A stretch of 64,000 bases of DNA from Betaproteobacteria bacterium (lineage in GTDB: Bacteria > Pseudomonadota > Gammaproteobacteria > Burkholderiales > SG8-39): positions 1 through 64,000 of the forward strand of contig JACRAS010000074.1 of assembly GCA_016234705.1 (NCBI GenBank). Direction: 5' to 3'. The translations under genes and the position numbers were made by a program. The notes beneath the pieces are model-generated. The model was given only the letters and a program-made list of their open reading frames with translations. It had not been told where the DNA came from and ran no database searches. This document shows, piece after piece, positions 324-28,423 of the stretch (position 1 is the first letter of the stretch; every line of letters begins with the position of its first letter).

Positions 324-1970
324 TTGTCCGCCGCAATCAAGACGCACCTCACCGATCTGCTGACGCAGGCGCTGGCGCGCGTAGCGCCGCAGTATCCGGC
401 GTCCATCATCGCGCTGGAGCGCCCGAAGCAGGCTGCGCACGGCGACTGGGCGTGCAATGTCGCCATGCAGCTCGCGCGCGAGCTCAAGCGCAATCCGCGC
501 GAACTGGCGCAGGCCCTGATCGCCGGCCTGCCGGCCTCGCCCTGGCTGGACCAGGCGGAACTTGCCGGTCCAGGCTTTATCAATCTGCGCCTGAAAGCGG
601 CGGCCAAGCTGGCGGCGCTGGGCATGGTGCATGCCGCCGGTGCGCGCTACGGTCGCGCCGACGCCGGACGGAGTCGGCCCATCCTGGTCGAATTCGTTTC
701 CGCCAACCCCACCGGCCCGTTGCATGTGGGCCACGGCCGCCAGGCGGCGCTGGGCGACGCGATTTCGGCCCTGCACGAAGCGCAGGGCTGGAAGGTGACG
801 CGCGAGTTCTATTACAACGACGCCGGCGCGCAGATCGACAATCTGGCGCTGTCGGTGCAGGCGCGCGCGCGCGAACAACGCGGCGAGGCGGTGACGTTTC
901 CCGAATCCGGCTACCACGGCGAATACATACGCGAAATCGCGGCCGGCTATCTCGCCCAGGGCGGCGACCCCGCCGATCTCGCGGCGGTGCGCAGGTTCGC
1001 CGTAGCCGCGCTGCGCCGCGAGCAGGACGAGGACCTCGAGGCGTTCGGCGTGAAATTCGACAACTATTACCTCGAATCGTCGCTCTACACCGAGGGCAAG
1101 GTCGAGGCGACGGTGCGCGCGCTCACCGCCTCGGGCAAGACCTACGAACAGGACGGCGCGCTGTGGCTCAGGACCACCGATTACGGTGACGACAAGGACC
1201 GGGTGATGAGGAAGTCCGACGGCAGCCACACTTATTTCGTGCCCGACGTCGCCTACCACATCACCAAGTGGCAGCGCGGTTTCGCGCACGCGGTCAATGT
1301 GCAGGGCTCGGACCATCACGGCACGGTGGCGCGGGTGCGTGCCGGACTGCAGGCGCTCGGCTCGGCGACGGGAGCCCGCATTCCGCGGGACTACCCGTAC
1401 TACGTGCTGCACAAAATGGTGACGGTGATGAAGGGAGGGGAGGAGGTAAAACTGTCGAAGCGCGCCGGCAGCTACGTCACGGTGCGCGAGCTGATCGACG
1501 AGGTAGGGCGCGATGCGGTGCGTTTTTTCCTGGTTTCGCGCAAGGCCGACACCGAATTCGTGTTCGACATCGACCTGGCGAAGTCGCAAACCGAGGACAA
1601 TCCGGTCTATTACGTGCAGTACGCGCATGCGCGCATCTGCTCGGTCCTCACGCAATGGGGCGGAAACCCGCAGGCGCTCCCCGCCGCCGGCTTGGCGCCG
1701 CTCACCCTCCCGCGCGAGTTCGCCCTGGCGCAGCGGCTGGGAGAATTTCCGGAAATGCTGGCCGAGGCAGGGCGCGAATTCGCGCCGCACATGGTGGCTT
1801 TCTACCTGCGTGAACTGGCAGGAGAGTTCCACAGCTACTATAATGCCGAGCGCATACTCGTCGCCGACGAGGAACTCAAGCTGGCGCGGCTTACACTGAT
1901 CCTCGCCGTGCGCCAAGTGCTGCAAAACGGTCTCGCGCTGCTGGGTGCGAGCGCTCCTGAAAAAATGTAA
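324..1970 (+). CDS. argS: Arginyl-tRNA synthetase
   Basis: Class I aminoacyl-tRNA synthetase that charges tRNA-Arg in the cytoplasm. The 548-residue protein starts with an ArgRS additional N-terminal domain. It has the HIGH motif as HVGH at residues 134-137, inside the family string [21 protein letters not shown]-like KLSKR lies at 376-380, and a C-terminal DALR anticodon-binding domain follows from about 430. The start is a TTG (SAAIKTHL follows). No in-frame ATG gives the full N-terminal domain, and a TATAAT box lies just upstream. Genes for a SPOR protein and DsbA follow on the same strand, an order I associate with betaproteobacteria. Length is normal for the family. Confidence 0.97.
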
Positions 1971-1972
1971 TA

Positions 1973-2039
1973 GGTCGTTTCGAATTTGTCGAAACGGCCC
2001 CGACTTAGGGGAGTATGAGGGGAGGTATCCCCTCATACT
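1973..2039 (+). other. Two consecutive stem-loops after argS
   Basis: An 11-bp stem (1973-1983 with 1989-1999, one G-T pair) is followed by a perfect 11-bp stem (AGTATGAGGGG at 2012-2022 with its complement at 2029-2039). Neither has a T-run, so they are not classical intrinsic terminators. They may modulate read-through or protect transcript ends between argS and the SPOR gene. Confidence 0.55.
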
Positions 2040-2053
2040 GTAATGAGCGATAA

Positions 2054-2632
2054 ATGGCCAAAGATTACAAACCGAGAACGGTAACGAAGAAAAAAAACGG
2101 CGGTGGCACGCTGCTCGGGATTTTCATCGGTCTCATCCTTGGCCTGGGCATCGCCGTCGGCATCGTATGGTATATGAACAAGACCCCGATCCCGTTCCTC
2201 AACAAGGCGAAGCCGCCGGAGAAAGCTGCGGCGGAACCGGGCAAGGCGCCGGCCAAGCCGGACGAAAAGACCACGCAGCAGGTGGAGAAACCGCGCTTCG
2301 AGTTCTACAAGATCCTGCCCGGCGCCGAGGAAGCGGTGACCGAACAGCAGATCAAGCAGGCGTCCAAGCCCGGCGCCCCCGCGGAGAATTACCTGCTGCA
2401 GGTGGGCTCGTTTCAAAATCCCGCCGATGCCGACAACCTGAAAGCCCGGCTTGCCTTGCTTGGGGTGGAGGCGGGCGTGGAACCGATCAATATCGCCGAA
2501 AAAGGCACGTGGTACCGGGTGCGTGTCGGGCCGTACAGCAAGGTGGACGAAATAAACCGCTTGCGCCAGACTTTGGCGCAGAACGGAATCGAGGCTACGC
2601 TGGTCAAAGTCAAGGACTCCGCCCCGCAGTAA
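2054..2632 (+). CDS. SPOR-domain cell-division/envelope protein (FtsN-like architecture)
   Basis: A 192-residue bitopic inner-membrane protein. It has a short basic cytoplasmic N-terminus (KPRTVTKKK) and one transmembrane helix at about residues 19-41. A Pro/Ala/Lys-rich periplasmic linker follows, then a C-terminal SPOR domain at about 113-190 (YLLQVGSF...ADNLKARLALLG...WYRVRVGPY). SPOR domains bind denuded septal peptidoglycan, so a role at the division site is expected from the family. It sits between argS and dsbA, 21 bases before dsbA. The start ATG opens a short lysine-rich tail before the membrane helix. Whether this is the true FtsN orthologue cannot be told from sequence alone. Confidence 0.85.
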   Translation: MAKDYKPRTVTKKKNGGGTLLGIFIGLILGLGIAVGIVWYMNKTPIPFLNKAKPPEKAAAEPGKAPAKPDEKTTQQVEKPRFEFYKILPGAEEAVTEQQIKQASKPGAPAENYLLQVGSFQNPADADNLKARLALLGVEAGVEPINIAEKGTWYRVRVGPYSKVDEINRLRQTLAQNGIEATLVKVKDSAPQ

Positions 2633-2653
2633 GCGCGGATCACATTTCGGGAG

Positions 2654-3304
2654 ATGCAAATGTTGAAGCGGTTGATAACAGGACTTATCGTGTTTTTCGC
2701 CGCGAGTTTGGCGCAAGCTCAGCCCGCGGCGGGCGTCGAGTATCGGGAGCTTTCCTCGGCGCAGCCTACCGATGCCGCCGGCAAGATAGAAGTCATCGAG
2801 TTCTTCTGGTACGGCTGCCCGCACTGCTACAATTTCGAGCCGGTAATCGAACCCTGGGTGAAAAAACTGCCCAAGGACACACAATTCCGCCGCGTTCCGG
2901 CCATTTTCAATCCCGAATGGGAGCAGGGCGCGCGCGCCTATTATGCGCTGGAGGCCATCGGCGAGGGCCAGCGCCTGCACAAACCGCTATTCGACGCCGT
3001 CCACAAGGACACCAGACTCAAGATCGCGAACGAGGCGGCGCTAACCGAATGGCTGGGCAAGCAGGGTGTAGACACGAAAAAATTCGCCGCTGCTTACCGC
3101 TCGTTTAGCGTCGAAGGCAAAGTGAAGCGTGCCGCGCAGCTGACCCAGGCGTACAAGATCGAGGGTGTGCCTTCCATGGCGGTGAACGGCAAGTACGTCG
3201 TCATAACCGACAACATCAAGTCGTTCGAGCAGATGCTCGCCGTCGCCGATTATCTGGTCGATCAAACGCGCATGAAGGGCGGCAAGGCCACGCCGAAGAA
3301 ATAG
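2654..3304 (+). CDS. dsbA: Thiol:disulfide interchange protein DsbA
   Basis: Periplasmic oxidant that introduces disulfides into exported proteins. The 216-residue precursor has a signal peptide (LITGLIVFFAASLAQA), a thioredoxin-like fold with active site CPHC at residues 55-58, and the cis-proline loop in EGVPSMAV. The CPHC dipeptide is the classical DsbA one. The gene begins 21 bases after the SPOR gene. A second DsbA-like gene with a different active-site dipeptide follows about 200 bases downstream, so the pair may divide substrates or partners. Confidence 0.92.
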   Translation: MQMLKRLITGLIVFFAASLAQAQPAAGVEYRELSSAQPTDAAGKIEVIEFFWYGCPHCYNFEPVIEPWVKKLPKDTQFRRVPAIFNPEWEQGARAYYALEAIGEGQRLHKPLFDAVHKDTRLKIANEAALTEWLGKQGVDTKKFAAAYRSFSVEGKVKRAAQLTQAYKIEGVPSMAVNGKYVVITDNIKSFEQMLAVADYLVDQTRMKGGKATPKK

Positions 3305-3465
3305 CGGCCTGTGGACACCGCGCCGCCCAAGGTCACATGTTCCTCTTCGGTGAAAACGTCGATCAGGATGGGTGGTCCCAGTCCTGCCAACATCGCCTGC
3401 AATTGCCGCGTATGCACCACTCCAGTCGGGCACAAGCGCTTTGGCAAACTTCGCCGGATGGGCAT
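3262..3465 (-). pseudogene. Possible remnant of a rhodanese-like protein
   Basis: In the gap between the two dsbA-like genes, the minus strand encodes a stretch reading VVHTRQLQAMLAG, then PPILIDVFTEEEHVTLGGAV. This resembles the start of a rhodanese-like domain (ILIDV...H..LPGAV). The similarity stops before any catalytic cysteine and the frame runs into the 3' end of dsbA. I read it as a decayed gene fragment, but chance cannot be excluded. Confidence 0.3.
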
Positions 3466-24550: not shown

Positions 24551-24575
24551 TTACACATTGTATCCGGCCGTGTAA
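24551..24575. promoter_or_regulatory. Inverted repeat between MFS gene and msrB
   Basis: TTACAC at 24551-24556 and GTGTAA at 24570-24575 form a spaced inverted repeat in the divergent 270-base gap between the MFS gene and msrB. It could be an operator. No other clear signal is visible in this gap. Confidence 0.35.
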
Positions 24576-24731
24576 CCATTCGCCATTTGCCGGCGAACTA
24601 CCTCTCAGAGCGCATCAAATGCATCGTTCGCGGCGCGCTGGACGCGCCCGCTGTATCCATCTTCGTCGGCGCCAGGGCCAGCGATGCGGATGGCGTAGCG
24701 TCTCGCGGCCCCTTTTTTTGCGGAGAATGTC

Positions 24732-25238
24732 ATGGATCGTCGCCAATCACTGAAATGGCTGTTCGGCTTATCAGCACTACCATTGACCAACGCAGGCTCC
24801 GCCTGGGCGAAGAACAGTCCCGGCTCGCGCTTACTTAAGTCAAAATCCGATTGGGCTGCCCTGCTGCCGCCCCCGGCTTATCGGGTGTTGTTCGAGGAAG
24901 ACACGGAACGCGCAGGCACAAGCCCCCTGAACCGGGAGAAACGCGATGGAAGTTTCGTCTGCGCCGCTTGTTACCTCCCCTTGTTCGACAGCACCAAGAA
25001 ATACGAGAGCGGCACCGGCTGGCCAAGTTTCTGGCAGCCATTGCCCGAAGCCGTCGGCACCAAGACCGATTTCAAAATCCTCTATCCGCGCACGGAATAT
25101 CACTGCGCTCGTTGCGGCGGACATCAGGGCCATATCTTCGATGATGGCCCGCAGCCGACCGGCAAGCGCTACTGCAACAACGGCGTTGCGCTGAAATTCG
25201 TGCCCCGCGGCGACAAGCTGCCGGAGCTGCGGACATGA
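24732..25238 (+). CDS. msrB: Exported peptide-methionine (R)-S-oxide reductase MsrB
   Basis: A 168-residue MsrB that reduces the R-epimer of methionine sulfoxide in proteins. The N-terminus DRRQSLKWLFGLSALPL has a twin-arginine-like motif and hydrophobic stretch, so export is predicted. It has zinc cysteines C77/C80 (CAAC) and C125/C128 (CARC) and the catalytic cysteine C148 in RYCNNGVALKF. The stop overlaps the msrA start (ATGA). It forms the head of a five-gene set (msrB, msrA, DUF1223, cytochrome b, molybdopterin enzyme). Confidence 0.93.
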   Translation: MDRRQSLKWLFGLSALPLTNAGSAWAKNSPGSRLLKSKSDWAALLPPPAYRVLFEEDTERAGTSPLNREKRDGSFVCAACYLPLFDSTKKYESGTGWPSFWQPLPEAVGTKTDFKILYPRTEYHCARCGGHQGHIFDDGPQPTGKRYCNNGVALKFVPRGDKLPELRT

Positions 25239-25855
25239 AAACCTGGCCGCGTCTGGTCGGTTTGGCCGCGAACATTCTGCTGCTCGTCGGCAGCATCGGT
25301 TTCGCCGCCGACGCGCCGCCGGCGAGACCGGCAGACACCGCGACGGCCATTTTCGCGGGCGGCTGTTTCTGGTGCATCGAAGCGGATTTTGAGAAGCTGC
25401 CGGGTGTGATTGGGGCGGAATCCGGATATACCGCTGGAAATACCGCCAACCCCACCTACAAAGAGGTCGGTGCCGGCGGTACCGGGCACACCGAGGCAAT
25501 CCGGGTAAGCTACGACCCGGCGAAAGTGAGTTATCAGCAACTGGTCGATTACTTCTGGAGGCACATCGATCCAACGGCGAGGGATCGGCAATTCTGCGAT
25601 GCCGGAACACAATATCGCAGCGGCATCTACTGGCGGAACGAGGCCGAACGCAAAATCGCCGAAGCCAGCCGGGACGCGCTGCTGAAAAGCGGCAAGCTGG
25701 CGCGGATCCACACGGAAATCGCCGCCGCCTCGGCGTTCTACCCGGCCGAGGAATATCACCAGGACTACTACAAGAAGAATCAGATCCGTTATGCCTACTA
25801 TCGCAAAAGCTGCGGCCGGGATGCCCGGGTGCGTGAGATCTGGGGCGACAAGTAG
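25235..25855 (+). CDS. msrA: Exported peptide-methionine (S)-S-oxide reductase MsrA
   Basis: A 206-residue MsrA reducing the S-epimer of methionine sulfoxide. A signal peptide (about residues 1-25, ending SIGFAADA) precedes the catalytic motif GGCFWCIEADF with C44. SGYTAGNTANPTYKEV and the GTQYRSGIYW substrate region follow. It is translationally coupled to msrB. The paired exported enzymes would repair both sulfoxide epimers in the periplasm. A periplasmic electron source is required and may be the thioredoxin-like neighbour or a DsbD-type donor elsewhere. Confidence 0.94.
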   Translation: MKTWPRLVGLAANILLLVGSIGFAADAPPARPADTATAIFAGGCFWCIEADFEKLPGVIGAESGYTAGNTANPTYKEVGAGGTGHTEAIRVSYDPAKVSYQQLVDYFWRHIDPTARDRQFCDAGTQYRSGIYWRNEAERKIAEASRDALLKSGKLARIHTEIAAASAFYPAEEYHQDYYKKNQIRYAYYRKSCGRDARVREIWGDK

Positions 25856-25866
25856 GCGCCTTATTC

Positions 25867-26649
25867 ATGAATACGCGTGGATTCACCCTTTGCATGCTCG
25901 TCGCCGCGTCATCGGCCACCCCGCCGGTTAGCGCTTTCGCGGCCTGTGACGCGCGCAGCGGGCCGAAGACGGCGGCGCTGGTCGAGCTCTACACTTCCGA
26001 AGGCTGCTCCAGTTGTCCTCCGGCAGACGAGCAGCTCAGCCGCTTGCGCCAGGCGCTGGGTCCGGCGGCCGCGGTGGTGCCGCTGGCGCTGCACGTGGAC
26101 TATTGGGACTACATCGGCTGGAAGGACGCGTATGCGCAGGGTAGCTTCGGCGAGCGTCAAAGCTGGCTGGTCCGTGCCAACCGGCACAAGATGGTCTATA
26201 CGCCCCAGTTCTTCGTCGGCGGCACCGAGCTGCGCTCATGGCGGGGTGCGTTGCCGGACAGGGTGAGGCAGTTGAATGGCCTGCCGGCGGCGGCCGAGGT
26301 CCGGATCCAGGCGAGCTTGGCCCCTGGCGGCGCGCTGGCACTCAACGCGGAGGCAACGACGCGGGCCGGGGCCGGGCCGGCCGCGCTGTACCTGGCGCTC
26401 ACAGAGAGCGGCCTCGCGTCGAAAGTGACGCGTGGCGAAAACAGAGGTGCTACGCTGGCGCACGATCATGTGGTGCGTGAATGGATCGGACCGATCCGCC
26501 TCCTCGCCGGCACCGCCTGGGTGCAGCGCGAGATCGCCTTGCCCGCGGCCTGGAACCGCGCGCGGCTGGAGGTGGTCGCTTTCGTGCAGGACGAGCGCAG
26601 CGGCAGCGTGCTGCAGGCGTTGAGCGCGCAGCGTTGCGCAGGTCCCTGA
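25867..26649 (+). CDS. DUF1223 thioredoxin-fold exported protein
   Basis: A 260-residue protein with a signal peptide (to about residue 25) and the DUF1223 signature ELYTSEGCSSCPPADEQLSRL. A CSSC pair sits in a thioredoxin-like position, and HVDYWDYIGWKDAYA and YTPQFFVGGT follow. The family function is not established. The CxxC and its place 11 bases after msrA suggest a redox role in the envelope, possibly handing electrons to the Msr enzymes; this is inference. Confidence 0.82.
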   Translation: MNTRGFTLCMLVAASSATPPVSAFAACDARSGPKTAALVELYTSEGCSSCPPADEQLSRLRQALGPAAAVVPLALHVDYWDYIGWKDAYAQGSFGERQSWLVRANRHKMVYTPQFFVGGTELRSWRGALPDRVRQLNGLPAAAEVRIQASLAPGGALALNAEATTRAGAGPAALYLALTESGLASKVTRGENRGATLAHDHVVREWIGPIRLLAGTAWVQREIALPAAWNRARLEVVAFVQDERSGSVLQALSAQRCAGP

Positions 26650-26670
26650 GTTCTGATTGAGGGAGTTTCC

Positions 26671-27267
26671 ATGAATGACGATACGCGACCAATCCACCCA
26701 GTCTGGCTGCGCGCGACGCACTGGCTCAATGCGCTCGCGGTGGTGATCCTGGTGATGAGCGGCTGGCGCATCTACAACGCGGCGCCCTTGTTCGACTTCA
26801 AGTTCGCCAAGGCCATCACGCTGGGAGGCTGGCTCGGCGGCGCGATCCAGTGGCACTTCGCGGCGATGTGGTTGCTCGCCGCCAACGGCCTGGTGTACCT
26901 GTTGTGCAACGTCGCCACCTGGCGGCTCGTGCGCAAGTTTTTCCCGCTGTCGCCGCGCGCCATCGTCGCCGACCTGCTCGCCGCATTGCGCGGTCATCTG
27001 TCGCATGCGGATCCGCGCCAGTACAACGCGGTGCAGCGCGCCGCCTATTTGTTCGTGATTGCCGACGCGGTGCTGCTGGTGCTGTCGGGCCTGGTGCTGT
27101 GGAAATCGGTGCAGTTTCCGCTGCTGCGCGAGCTGCTGGGCGGCTATGAGACCGCGCGCCGCGTGCATTTCTTCGCCATGGCTGCGCTGGTCGCTTTCGT
27201 TATGGTGCACCTGGCAATGGTGGCGCTGGTGCCGCGTACGCTGTTGGCCATGATCCGCGGCCGTTAA
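26671..27267 (+). CDS. Cytochrome b561-type membrane subunit
   Basis: A 198-residue protein with four predicted membrane helices and candidate haem histidines (RATHWLNALAVVIL, IQWHFAAMW, RRVHFFAMA, VMVHLAMVAL). This is the pattern of cytochrome b561/hydrogenase-type b subunits. It stands 12 bases before the molybdopterin oxidoreductase gene and probably passes quinol electrons to it. The arrangement is functionally analogous to MsrQ with MsrP, although MsrQ itself is a different, YedZ-type protein. Confidence 0.85.
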   Translation: MNDDTRPIHPVWLRATHWLNALAVVILVMSGWRIYNAAPLFDFKFAKAITLGGWLGGAIQWHFAAMWLLAANGLVYLLCNVATWRLVRKFFPLSPRAIVADLLAALRGHLSHADPRQYNAVQRAAYLFVIADAVLLVLSGLVLWKSVQFPLLRELLGGYETARRVHFFAMAALVAFVMVHLAMVALVPRTLLAMIRGR

Positions 27268-27279
27268 GGAGTTACCCTC

Positions 27280-28056
27280 ATGATAAAAAAAGCCCCCCGA
27301 CTGGTCGCGATCGACGGCGACGCCGTGGTAAAGGAAGCGCTACGCCGCATCGAACAGCCGTCGCGCCGCCTGTTCCTGCAGCGCTCGCTCACGCTCGGCG
27401 GCCTGTCGCTTTTGACCGGCTGCGCTATCGTCGACGAGGACAGCGTCGAAACCGCGTTGATGCGGGTGTCGCGCTTCAACGACGATGTACAGGGCTGGCT
27501 GTTCGATCCCAAGCAGTTGGCGCCAACCTATCCCGAGTCGATGATCACGCGGCCGTTCCCGTTCAATGCCTACTATGACGAGGACGAGATACGCGAGGTC
27601 GATGCGGACAGCTACCGGCTCGAGGTCACCGGCATGGTGGCGGACAGGCACGCCTGGACGCTGGCCGAACTGCAGGCGCTGCCGCAGACCGACCAGGTCA
27701 CGCGCCACATCTGCGTCGAGGGCTGGAGCGCCATCGGCAAATGGGGCGGAGTGAACTTCGCCAGCTTCCTCGCGCGCGTCGGCGCGGACACCAGCGCCAA
27801 GTACATCGGCTTCAACTGCGCCGACGACTATTACACCAGCATCGACATGCCGACCGCGCTACACCCGCAGACACTGCTGGCCTTGAGCTATGACGGCCGG
27901 CCGCTGCCACCGCGCTACGGCTTCCCGATGAAACTGCGCATGCCGACCAAGCTTGGCTACAAGAACCCGAAACACATCCAGGCAATTTTCATCACCAACA
28001 CCTACCCCGGCGGCTATTGGGAAGACCAGGGGTACAACTGGTTCGGGGGTAGCTGA
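27280..28056 (+). CDS. Molybdopterin-dependent oxidoreductase (sulfite oxidase fold)
   Basis: A 258-residue exported enzyme of the sulfite-oxidase/YedY superfamily. It has a twin-arginine-like signal (SRRLFLQRSLTLGG, R29-R30), apparently followed by a lipobox LTGC with C48. The molybdenum-ligand cysteine is C145 in RHICVEGWSAIGKW. Other family strings are FNCADDYYTSIDM and GYKNPKHIQAI. The co-encoded cytochrome b and the msrB/msrA genes suggest reduction of sulfoxides in the envelope, as for MsrPQ. The protein is shorter than MsrP and could be a related but distinct reductase. Confidence 0.87.
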   Translation: MIKKAPRLVAIDGDAVVKEALRRIEQPSRRLFLQRSLTLGGLSLLTGCAIVDEDSVETALMRVSRFNDDVQGWLFDPKQLAPTYPESMITRPFPFNAYYDEDEIREVDADSYRLEVTGMVADRHAWTLAELQALPQTDQVTRHICVEGWSAIGKWGGVNFASFLARVGADTSAKYIGFNCADDYYTSIDMPTALHPQTLLALSYDGRPLPPRYGFPMKLRMPTKLGYKNPKHIQAIFITNTYPGGYWEDQGYNWFGGS

Positions 28057-28129
28057 GTTCGGCTCGGACGCTCTCGCGCAAGCTCGGCTATCATTGCCGC
28101 AGGCCGATTCTTGCACGGGGGCGCCTACC

Positions 28130-28423
28130 ATGAGCCACAAGCACCAGCACCTAATCCAGTCCATCTTCCACGACCCGATCAGCGCCAACATCCACTGGCG
28201 GGAGGTGGAGTCGCTGCTGCATCATCTCGGGGCCGAGGTCGAATCGCTCTCGGGCGCGCGCCTGCGTGTGAAGCTGCATGGCCACGAGGACGTGCTGCAC
28301 CGCCCGCATCACGGCAACACGCTCGACCGCTCGGCGGTCAAGATCCTGCGCGAATATCTGGCGCGCGCCCGGGTTACGCCTTCGCTGCTCGAGGCAGACA
28401 AGCCCCGAGCGAAAGATGCCTAA
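28130..28423 (+). CDS. HicA-like toxin, apparently without a HicB partner
   Basis: A 97-residue protein with a HicA/YcfA-type dsRNA-binding-like fold. WREVESLLHHLGAEVESLSGARLRVKLHG is followed by the catalytic-histidine region HRPHHGNTLDRSAVKILREYL. HicA proteins are mRNA interferases neutralised by HicB. No hicB-like frame is adjacent on either side: the upstream neighbour is the molybdopterin enzyme and downstream is glpD. It may be an orphan, or have a role unrelated to toxicity. The ATG at 28130 has only a weak upstream purine stretch. Confidence 0.7.
   Translation: MSHKHQHLIQSIFHDPISANIHWREVESLLHHLGAEVESLSGARLRVKLHGHEDVLHRPHHGNTLDRSAVKILREYLARARVTPSLLEADKPRAKDA

Follow-up and report, generated by a model that had tools for sequence, protein, structure and literature searches.

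To our knowledge, the supply of electrons to exported methionine sulfoxide reductases (Msr) that carry no fused thioredoxin domain is still a mostly open question in proteobacteria. The locus considered here lies in a Betaproteobacteria bacterium (GenBank assembly GCA_016234705.1, contig JACRAS010000074.1) and consists of genes for MsrB, MsrA, a DUF1223 protein, a PF01292 cytochrome b (CytB) and a PF00174 molybdopterin enzyme (MopB), all on one strand (+) at positions 24732-28056 of the 64,000 nucleotides that were analysed, referred to below as the window. For Blr7043 of B. japonicum it has been stated that such an exported enzyme depends on electrons that are carried across the membrane and passed on to it, and the extracytoplasmic function (ECF) sigma factor regulon of this organism, ECF16, also includes Msr genes (PMC3420878). 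In other systems MsrAB is served by thioredoxin-fold donors outside the cytoplasm (PMC3914529; PMC6210582). As described in these reports, PilB of Neisseria and the CcdA-Etrx-MsrAB2 system of pneumococcus combine extracytoplasmic MsrA/MsrB with an adjoining or fused thioredoxin-fold protein, as does the window; however, the window protein is of the two-domain DUF1223 kind, no CcdA/DsbD gene adjoins it, and donation, demonstrated in those systems, is a hypothesis here.

Closer relatives in terms of gene content are the perchlorate reduction islands, which carry sigF/nrsF, yedYZ and mrpX, and in two strains also msrA/msrB genes whose products are predicted to be exported (PMC4623255). By gene content no published system that was found comes nearer to the complete set than these islands, and DUF1223 is not named in the portion of that report that was available. 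With the SigF/NrsF-MrpX-YedYZ hypochlorite defence of Azospira suillum the window locus shares sigma-F/NrsF control and molybdopterin Msr genes, as well as, in the window's relatives, a methionine-rich peptide; it differs in having DUF1223 and a PF01292 cytochrome (YedZ being compared by description only) and in lacking adjoining sigF, nrsF and mrpX genes. A further parallel is the C3566/C3567/C3568 module of uropathogenic E. coli CFT073, which reportedly functions in hydrogen peroxide (H2O2) resistance under the H2O2-responsive regulator pair OrhK/OrhR (PMC8550376). Here a cytochrome b gene and an MsrP-like molybdoenzyme gene are adjacent in the same order as in the window, yet control is by a two-component system and not by sigma-F, and a methionine-rich peptide gene lies downstream where the window has none. 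The C3564-C3568 gene order of CFT073 is that of E. coli 536 and of plasmids, the identities given below being those of plasmid proteins, and the annotated stretches of the plasmid and 536 modules contain no DUF1223, MsrA or MsrB. MsrPQ (YedYZ) resembles the window pair in the MopB fold, the CVExWS motif, a twin-arginine translocation (Tat) signal and a membrane b-type partner, but the window MopB is about 50 residues shorter at its C-terminus and falls below the MsrP cut-off, and its partner belongs to PF01292 and not to PF01794. The window system is a variant of the known SigF/NrsF-MrpX-Msr (sigma-F methionine-repair) modules, in which the new elements are the recurring membership of DUF1223, the DUF1223-CytB-MopB order in two phyla and the HBP35-like fold of DUF1223.

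The first gene, msrB (24732-25238), encodes a Zn-type methionine-R-sulfoxide reductase with a twin-arginine leader (PF01641, SelR, 144.2 bits; TIGR00357 above cut-off), and the second, msrA (25235-25855), a methionine-S-sulfoxide reductase with a Sec-type leader, a GCFWC motif and a C-terminal KSCGR (PF01625, PMSR, 205.4 bits; TIGR00401 above cut-off). These are followed by the DUF1223 gene (25867-26649; PF06764, 179.4 bits against a cut-off of 30.7), whose leader-bearing product combines a thioredoxin fold containing CSSC with a C-terminal beta-sandwich (Omp28-like) domain. CytB (26671-27267; PF01292, Ni_hydr_CYTB, 92.1 bits) is a cytochrome b561-like membrane subunit, putatively a quinol-oxidising cytochrome b, and MopB (27280-28056; PF00174, Oxidored_molyb, 107.9 bits) is an MsrP-like molybdopterin enzyme of the sulfite-oxidase fold with a CVEGWS motif, a Tat signal and a lipobox-like LLTGC, as twin-arginine and lipobox motifs are usually defined. 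The Pfam scores of all five proteins are far above the curated cut-offs. The msrB and msrA genes overlap by four bases (ATGA), and the remaining gaps are 11 bases between MsrA and DUF1223, 21 between DUF1223 and CytB and 12 between CytB and MopB. In these respects the sequence-only reading, which had described five tightly spaced open reading frames (ORFs) with export signals on both Msr proteins, a CxxC-containing DUF1223 protein, a cytochrome b561-like subunit and a Tat-type molybdopterin enzyme, was accurate; the export signals, a twin-arginine leader for MsrB and Sec-type leaders for MsrA and DUF1223, were judged by eye and against homologs.

Upstream of the operon, at 24572-24597 on the same strand and starting 160 bases before msrB, there is a sigma-F (ECF16) promoter-like site, GTAACC-N16-CGAA, that was absent from the sequence-only reading. 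The site is identical to the published sigma-F consensus of Caulobacter (PMC3511200), and the BcrS sites of Brucella resemble it (PMC8315932). It is the single match to this motif within the window (0.11 expected), and an exact sigma-F motif also precedes the operon in five related loci (L031-L034 and L036). Across the 4.49 Mb source genome, TGTAACC-N14-17-GCGAA has five matches against two for the reversed control: one before msrB, one at the start of sigF, one divergently beside sigF, and two on contigs C27 and C235 to which no interpretable genes could be attached. Between 24400 and 28700 no sigma-70-type promoter was found, and the four terminator-like sites there are no excess over shuffled sequences (mean 3.1). 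That the five genes form one sigma-F operon is very likely.

The presumptive regulators are encoded on another contig of the source genome, C94, where an nrsF gene (238.6 bits) is overlapped by an upstream sigma-factor-like ORF, named sigF from its likeness to the SigF of locus L032, and where sigF-nrsF are preceded by a sigma-F motif of their own. Divergent from sigF and likewise preceded by a sigma-F motif is a leader-bearing gene that starts MNIRSLAFSTFTLAA and is cut after 15 codons by the end of the contig (L117 4732-4888, at the end of C94 of genome G000). No MXKDX/MrpX gene was found in the source genome by a DNA pattern that recovers 16 of 19 comparison loci, two places being entered twice; the three misses are L172, for which no match was expected, and L168 and L179, which have looser repeats. 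Because C94 breaks inside a candidate gene, this absence is not taken as a loss, and the assembly may have broken at the repeats of an MXKDX gene. Within the window itself there is no methionine-rich ORF, and a HicA-like gene stands downstream of MopB instead.

Taken together, these features are read, with moderate confidence, as a five-gene SigF-controlled operon for methionine repair in the envelope with DUF1223 as its thiol reductant. Here, oxidant stress would be sensed by the anti-sigma factor NrsF, releasing SigF and allowing transcription of the operon. The Tat-exported MsrB and the Sec-exported MsrA would reduce the R and S sulfoxides, respectively, by thiol chemistry, while CytB would pass electrons from the quinol pool to a membrane-tethered, MsrP-like MopB. 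The latter would act on methionine sulfoxide in exported proteins; in many relatives a sacrificial methionine-rich MXKDX peptide would be a further substrate. DUF1223 would keep thiols of the stressed envelope reduced, plausibly including the active-site cysteines of MsrB and MsrA, and would probably be recharged by a DsbD-like protein encoded elsewhere in the genome. Gene order, protein families, the promoter match, conservation, co-occurrence and the predicted fold are observations, whereas co-transcription, export, substrates and electron flow are in this scheme those to be expected from the protein families, the neighbourhood and the published relatives. That the operon serves to repair oxidised methionine in the periplasm or envelope is well supported.

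The DUF1223 protein is highly likely to be a thiol oxidoreductase. Its CxxC, CSSC in the window, is intact in 120 of 120 loci, although the first of these cysteines belongs to one of two peptide patterns by which 80 of the 120 were selected; C47 and C50 are invariant among 52 aligned sequences, as are further columns that include E40, G46, P51, H76, W85, T112, P113, G190 and N192. DUF1223 has been assigned to the thioredoxin clan, and the DUF1223 protein Atu2684 (2axo) is placed in c.47 of SCOP (PMC3091736). An AlphaFold model of the window protein (predicted local distance difference test score, pLDDT, 93.2) matches 2axo with a Z of 21.2 over 207 residues (root-mean-square deviation, rmsd, 3.2) and HBP35 of Porphyromonas gingivalis (5y1a) with a Z of 20.8 over 216 residues (rmsd 3.1), in each case across both domains, with the next matches falling to 8.7 (an Omp28 domain) and 7.0. 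Like the DUF1223 model, 2axo and HBP35 join a thioredoxin domain with a CxxC to a beta-sandwich domain and can be superposed over nearly the whole length. Recombinant HBP35 reduces insulin better than E. coli thioredoxin, an activity that is lost with C48S/C51S, and its C-terminal part binds hemin (PMC2907840). HBP35 is in addition hemin-binding and surface-reaching, and the identity is 19%; heme binding of the HBP35 kind is not claimed as an established property of DUF1223. On the strength of the modelled fold, DUF1223 is most likely an exported thiol-disulfide oxidoreductase. In the open-licence literature, the papers found give no function for DUF1223, and none was found that links it to Msr systems.

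Two-cysteine MsrB proteins usually carry the motif SGCGWPSF. The window MsrB, which begins with the twin-arginine leader MDRRQSLKWLFG, has SGTGWPSF, with threonine and no cysteine at the usual resolving position. Five of the six MsrB proteins that adjoin DUF1223 have, as in the window, just five cysteines (four of the zinc-type CxxC pairs plus the catalytic one) and threonine in place of the resolving cysteine, and the twin-arginine pair is retained in five MsrB neighbours of the same type. Mammalian MsrB has serine or threonine in place of the proximal resolving cysteine (PMC7475093). Judged from these residues, an MsrB without a resolving cysteine should need an outside thiol, which fits a thioredoxin-fold partner. 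The missing cysteine is not special to the exported form, since SGTGWPS is also found in 14 of 15 leaderless MsrB places. On other contigs the source genome encodes a DsbD-like protein (PF02683, a 627-residue frame) and a shorter one, and therefore an electron route into the periplasm exists. Two more MsrA genes lie near each other on opposite strands of contig C161 (7268-8420), and a second MsrB gene is on contig C228.

The neighbourhoods of DUF1223 in other genomes were compared in two sets. The collection set, obtained with a DUF1223 alignment against 84,980 species genomes, comprises the 80 top-ranking places out of at least 590 that were confirmed and leans towards window-like loci owing to its ranking by likeness to the window protein. 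The order set holds 40 loci, taken without such ranking from 150 genomes belonging to the order; DUF1223 occurs in 42 of these genomes, and the window and G006, a fragment at a contig end, were excluded. Partners were self-chosen and counted within 5 kb, some contigs being short. MsrA lies near DUF1223 in 6 of 80 collection and 1 of 40 order loci and MsrB in 5 and 1, so that either is found in 7 of 120 (6 plus 1). CytB is present in 7 and 4, MopB in 7 and 5, MsrP in 2 and none, NrsF in 5 and 1, and a SigF-like gene in 7 and 2, those of L062 and L130 being just 27-32% identical. An MXKDX gene is found in 5 loci of each set, or in 11 of 120 when a short repeat in L035 is added. In all, 14 of the 80 and 6 of the 40 loci have any searched partner, and a minority carry several together. 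The commonest partner of DUF1223 is CytB-MopB, mostly without MsrAB. Clustering of neighbours without a guide recovered a MopB cluster of 8 loci and an MsrA/MsrB cluster of 6; its other recurrent groups include a gene judged by eye to be PHP-domain-like, in 8 loci, and groups limited to related Bacteroidota.

An intact DUF1223-CytB-MopB order is seen in 11 loci (the window, L031, L033, L034, L036, L040, L137, L142, L156, L100 and L101). The last two belong to Mucilaginibacter (Bacteroidota), where CytB is 31-32% and MopB 39% identical to the window proteins and the upstream genes include one for an ECF sigma factor and a small methionine-rich one. The full set is found in a member of the Rhodocyclaceae (L033), with NrsF-SigF divergent from MsrB-MsrA-DUF1223-CytB-MopB-MXKDX and exact sigma-F motifs on both sides. 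In L034 the order is DUF1223-CytB-MopB-MsrB-MsrA, in L045 (Accumulibacter) and L126 it is DUF1223-MsrB-MsrA, and in L075 (Gammaproteobacteria) an MsrA-MsrB fusion precedes DUF1223; L062 (Rubrivivax) has an MsrA match at 39% alone, L130 a MopB remnant only, and L147 a CytB-MopB pair about 4 kb away on the opposite strand. Linkage in other species, the lack of which the sequence-only reading had named as grounds for refutation, is therefore seen with MsrA/MsrB or CytB-MopB in other Betaproteobacteria, a Gammaproteobacterium and Bacteroidota.

A close comparison is with L032, which is syntenic with the window. In the window the operon is flanked upstream by a major facilitator superfamily (MFS) transporter gene on the opposite strand and downstream by a HicA-like small gene (28130-28423; PF07927, 28.8 bits, barely above the cut-off of 27), for which an ORF with a similar start is also present in L032, and by a glycerol-3-phosphate dehydrogenase gene. 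L032 likewise has the MFS gene upstream and the HicA-like and glycerol-3-phosphate-dehydrogenase-like genes downstream. It carries NrsF-SigF divergently, next to MsrB-MsrA-DUF1223, and is without CytB-MopB, the reverse of the window; when L032 8001-9161 is set against window 25867-28423, CytB-MopB is absent between DUF1223 and the HicA-like gene. Between these two loci, modules have been gained or lost as units.

DUF1223 also occurs in other settings. On a Sphingomonas paeninsulae plasmid (L172 2761-6606) a row of sigma factor, DUF1109, hypothetical, DUF692 and DUF2063 genes that closes with DUF1223 has sigma-F motifs, and a row of sigma factor, DUF1109, DUF692 and DUF2063 is a type of sigma-F regulon described in Caulobacter (PMC3511200), which suggests that DUF1223 also joins DUF692/DUF2063 operons. 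On a Rhizobium binae plasmid about 4 kb separates DUF1223 from NrsF and a gene of the sigma-70 family, and the DUF1223 of a Pelagibacterium plasmid showed no sigma-F tie. The idea that DUF1223 genes generally have a sigma-F promoter was rejected, as exact sites within 300 bases upstream are limited to 2 of 40 loci in one set and 6 of 78 in the other (shuffled motifs, means of 0 and 0.075). With two mismatches allowed the motif is indistinguishable from its shuffled versions (14, with a shuffled mean of 10.3 and maximum of 18; 18, with a shuffled mean of 20.5), and weaker sites were therefore left uncounted.

A tree of 117 of the 121 DUF1223 proteins (four short ones were dropped), with many weak forks and support from the Shimodaira-Hasegawa-like approximate likelihood ratio test (SH-aLRT) only, places the window protein in a clade of 11 members (SH-aLRT 97), none of which is without a partner, the label of L035 coming from its MXKDX gene alone, a short repeat that escapes the stricter pattern. 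Over the whole tree the partner state changes at least eight times, and therefore the association was gained or lost several times. Among the 150 genomes of the order, twin-arginine MsrB occurs in 40, as read from the N-termini of 59 places in 48 genomes with E of 1e-38 or better; weaker matches were left unclassed, G131 was classed as exported by eye, and a twin-arginine call in L222 was dropped as spurious without affecting the genome count. DUF1223 and exported MsrB are found together in 24 genomes against 11.2 expected (18 have DUF1223 only, 16 MsrB only and 92 neither), with a Fisher p of 6e-7 and permutation p of 0.006 in genome-size bins and 0.0055 within families. Counted by family, both are present in 15 of 51 (p 0.023), and the effect is clear in genomes of 3-4 and 4-5 Mb. 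The co-occurrence of DUF1223 with Msr genes that the sequence-only reading had proposed to look for is thus present for exported MsrB. Exported MsrB also accompanies NrsF (13 genomes, 6.4 expected, p 0.002). Adjacency is rare by comparison: of the 30 best MsrB loci, two (the window and L198) have DUF1223 no more than 1.5 kb away, and nine have MsrA.

What DUF1223 reduces is thus approached from two directions: linkage favours CytB-MopB as its main client, and co-occurrence across genomes favours exported MsrB. A credible alternative, held to be somewhat short of probable, is that DUF1223 serves CytB-MopB or envelope thiols in general, protecting or reducing cysteines or maturing a partner under oxidant stress, and that MsrAB joined the operon through the shared sigma factor. 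Eight of the 11 intact DUF1223-CytB-MopB loci (L031, L036, L040, L100, L101, L137, L142 and L156, some on short contigs) have no MsrA/MsrB within 5 kb, the annotated stretch of the Sphingomonas paeninsulae row contains no Msr gene, the Pelagibacterium DUF1223 is near genes annotated as a thioredoxin-domain protein and disulfide bond formation protein B, and HBP35, the closest studied fold, reduces the disulfides of insulin (PMC2907840). Yet on its own this alternative leaves the co-occurrence with exported MsrB unexplained, and in L032, L045, L126 and L075 DUF1223 adjoins MsrAB with no CytB-MopB inside the 5 kb range. Because most DUF1223 and exported MsrB genes are not neighbours, direct donation from DUF1223 to MsrA/MsrB is regarded as plausible but tentative. 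Of the interpretation offered in the sequence-only reading, the exported repair cluster joining thiol-based MsrA/MsrB with a quinol-type reductase stands, while the role of DUF1223 as the electron carrier of Msr is a reasonable hypothesis; its commonest partner is CytB-MopB. A more specific proposal, considered unlikely, is that DUF1223 is a dedicated sigma-F envelope reductase that directly recycles exported MsrB and MsrA and may draw its electrons from the b-type cytochrome, which would amount to a DsbD-independent route from quinol to thiol; the cytochrome is suggested as a source because DUF1223 directly precedes it in two phyla and shares a fold with a hemin-binding protein.

The CytB-MopB pair is likely to be a sulfoxide reductase. 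In CytB, H9, H17, H62, H166 and H180 are invariant across 11 aligned sequences. MopB starts with SRRLFLQ followed by LLTGC, a Tat signal and lipobox-like site that are both retained in proteobacterial homologs, the two Mucilaginibacter proteins having the twin-arginine pair and no lipobox. The cysteine of CVExWS is the molybdenum ligand; the window motif is CVEGWS, compared with CVEAWS in the MsrP of L052 and CVEGWS in that of L070. The best solved relatives by sequence and fold are the E. coli YedY/MsrP structures 1xdq and 1xdy, the fold search being used solely to support the sequence match given the moderate pLDDT (71.9) of the model. Assignment of the pair as MsrP and MsrQ was rejected, as MopB scores 77.8 bits with the MsrP equivalog NF003767, for which the cut-off is 207 and true MsrP of L052 reaches 502.2, and as CytB belongs to PF01292 and not to PF01794. 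No papers treating both MsrP and cytochrome b561 were found. It is improbable that CytB-MopB is instead a sulfite dehydrogenase or another oxidase-type molybdoenzyme, in an operon of mixed sulfur-oxidation and stress functions. PF00174 is the sulfite-oxidase fold, SorA (53.9 bits) and SoxC (40 bits) give weak matches, and sulfite dehydrogenases come close behind YedY in the fold search; however, MsrP is the top-scoring model, YedY/MsrP is best by both sequence and fold, CVEGWS is near the true MsrP motif, MopB repeatedly neighbours methionine-rich peptides and Msr genes, and the pair reported from E. coli works in peroxide resistance (PMC8550376).

The pair is also found apart from DUF1223. 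On an E. coli plasmid (NZ_CP066807.1; L169 6394-8052) and in E. coli 536 (L179 2703-4342), CytB-MopB and a methionine-rich gene form a module with a two-component system; the plasmid proteins keep the order of the window, with CytB 59% and MopB 58-59% identical to it. Such modules also stand beside two-component genes in Rahnella, and in Caballeronia the neighbours are genes annotated as sigma factor and DUF1109, with sigma-F motifs. MopB-like places occur in 227 plasmid records (58 Escherichia, 16 Klebsiella), and at the DNA level the module is matched in 350 of 5426 complete E. coli genomes, both on chromosomes and on plasmids. In the stretches examined, L207 (genome G129, 1504-3368) has MopB, MsrA and MsrB on the same strand and L162 (G393, 12-2914) has convergent MsrA-MsrB and CytB-MopB, in both cases with no DUF1223 match.

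That the five genes are chance neighbours in a compact genome is scarcely credible: the set is not fixed, the close relative L032 being without CytB-MopB and most DUF1223 genes without these neighbours, but the overlap and gaps of 11-21 bases, the order kept in two phyla, the partners of all 11 members of the window clade and the recurrence of the same partners around DUF1223 in other species contradict it.

Several observations weigh against the reading of the locus as a SigF-controlled repair operon with DUF1223 as thiol reductant. No searched partner is present within 5 kb at 34 of 40 order and 66 of 80 collection loci (65 with the short repeat of L035), some on short contigs, and 28 of the 30 best MsrB loci have no DUF1223 within 1.5 kb. 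Sixteen of the 40 genomes with exported MsrB are without DUF1223, and the association of the two is absent below 3 Mb and reversed, not significantly, above 5 Mb. DUF1223 and NrsF are unassociated (6 of 150 genomes, 6.7 expected), on which ground a strict dependence of DUF1223 on SigF/NrsF was rejected. MopB scores too low for the MsrP equivalog, and the cytochrome paired with it is unlike MsrQ. Lastly, sigF, nrsF and an MXKDX gene do not adjoin the window operon, and contig C94 could in principle be foreign, the source genome being a draft of 260 contigs with 96.34% completeness and 6.45% estimated contamination.

For DUF1223, a widespread family, the neighbourhood, the predicted fold and the co-occurrence with exported MsrB together give a specific and testable role in the defence of the envelope against oxidants. 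The b561-MopB pair, in turn, is suggested to be a second line of quinol-linked methionine repair, distinct from MsrPQ, that extends over Burkholderiales, conjugative enterobacterial plasmids and Bacteroidota.

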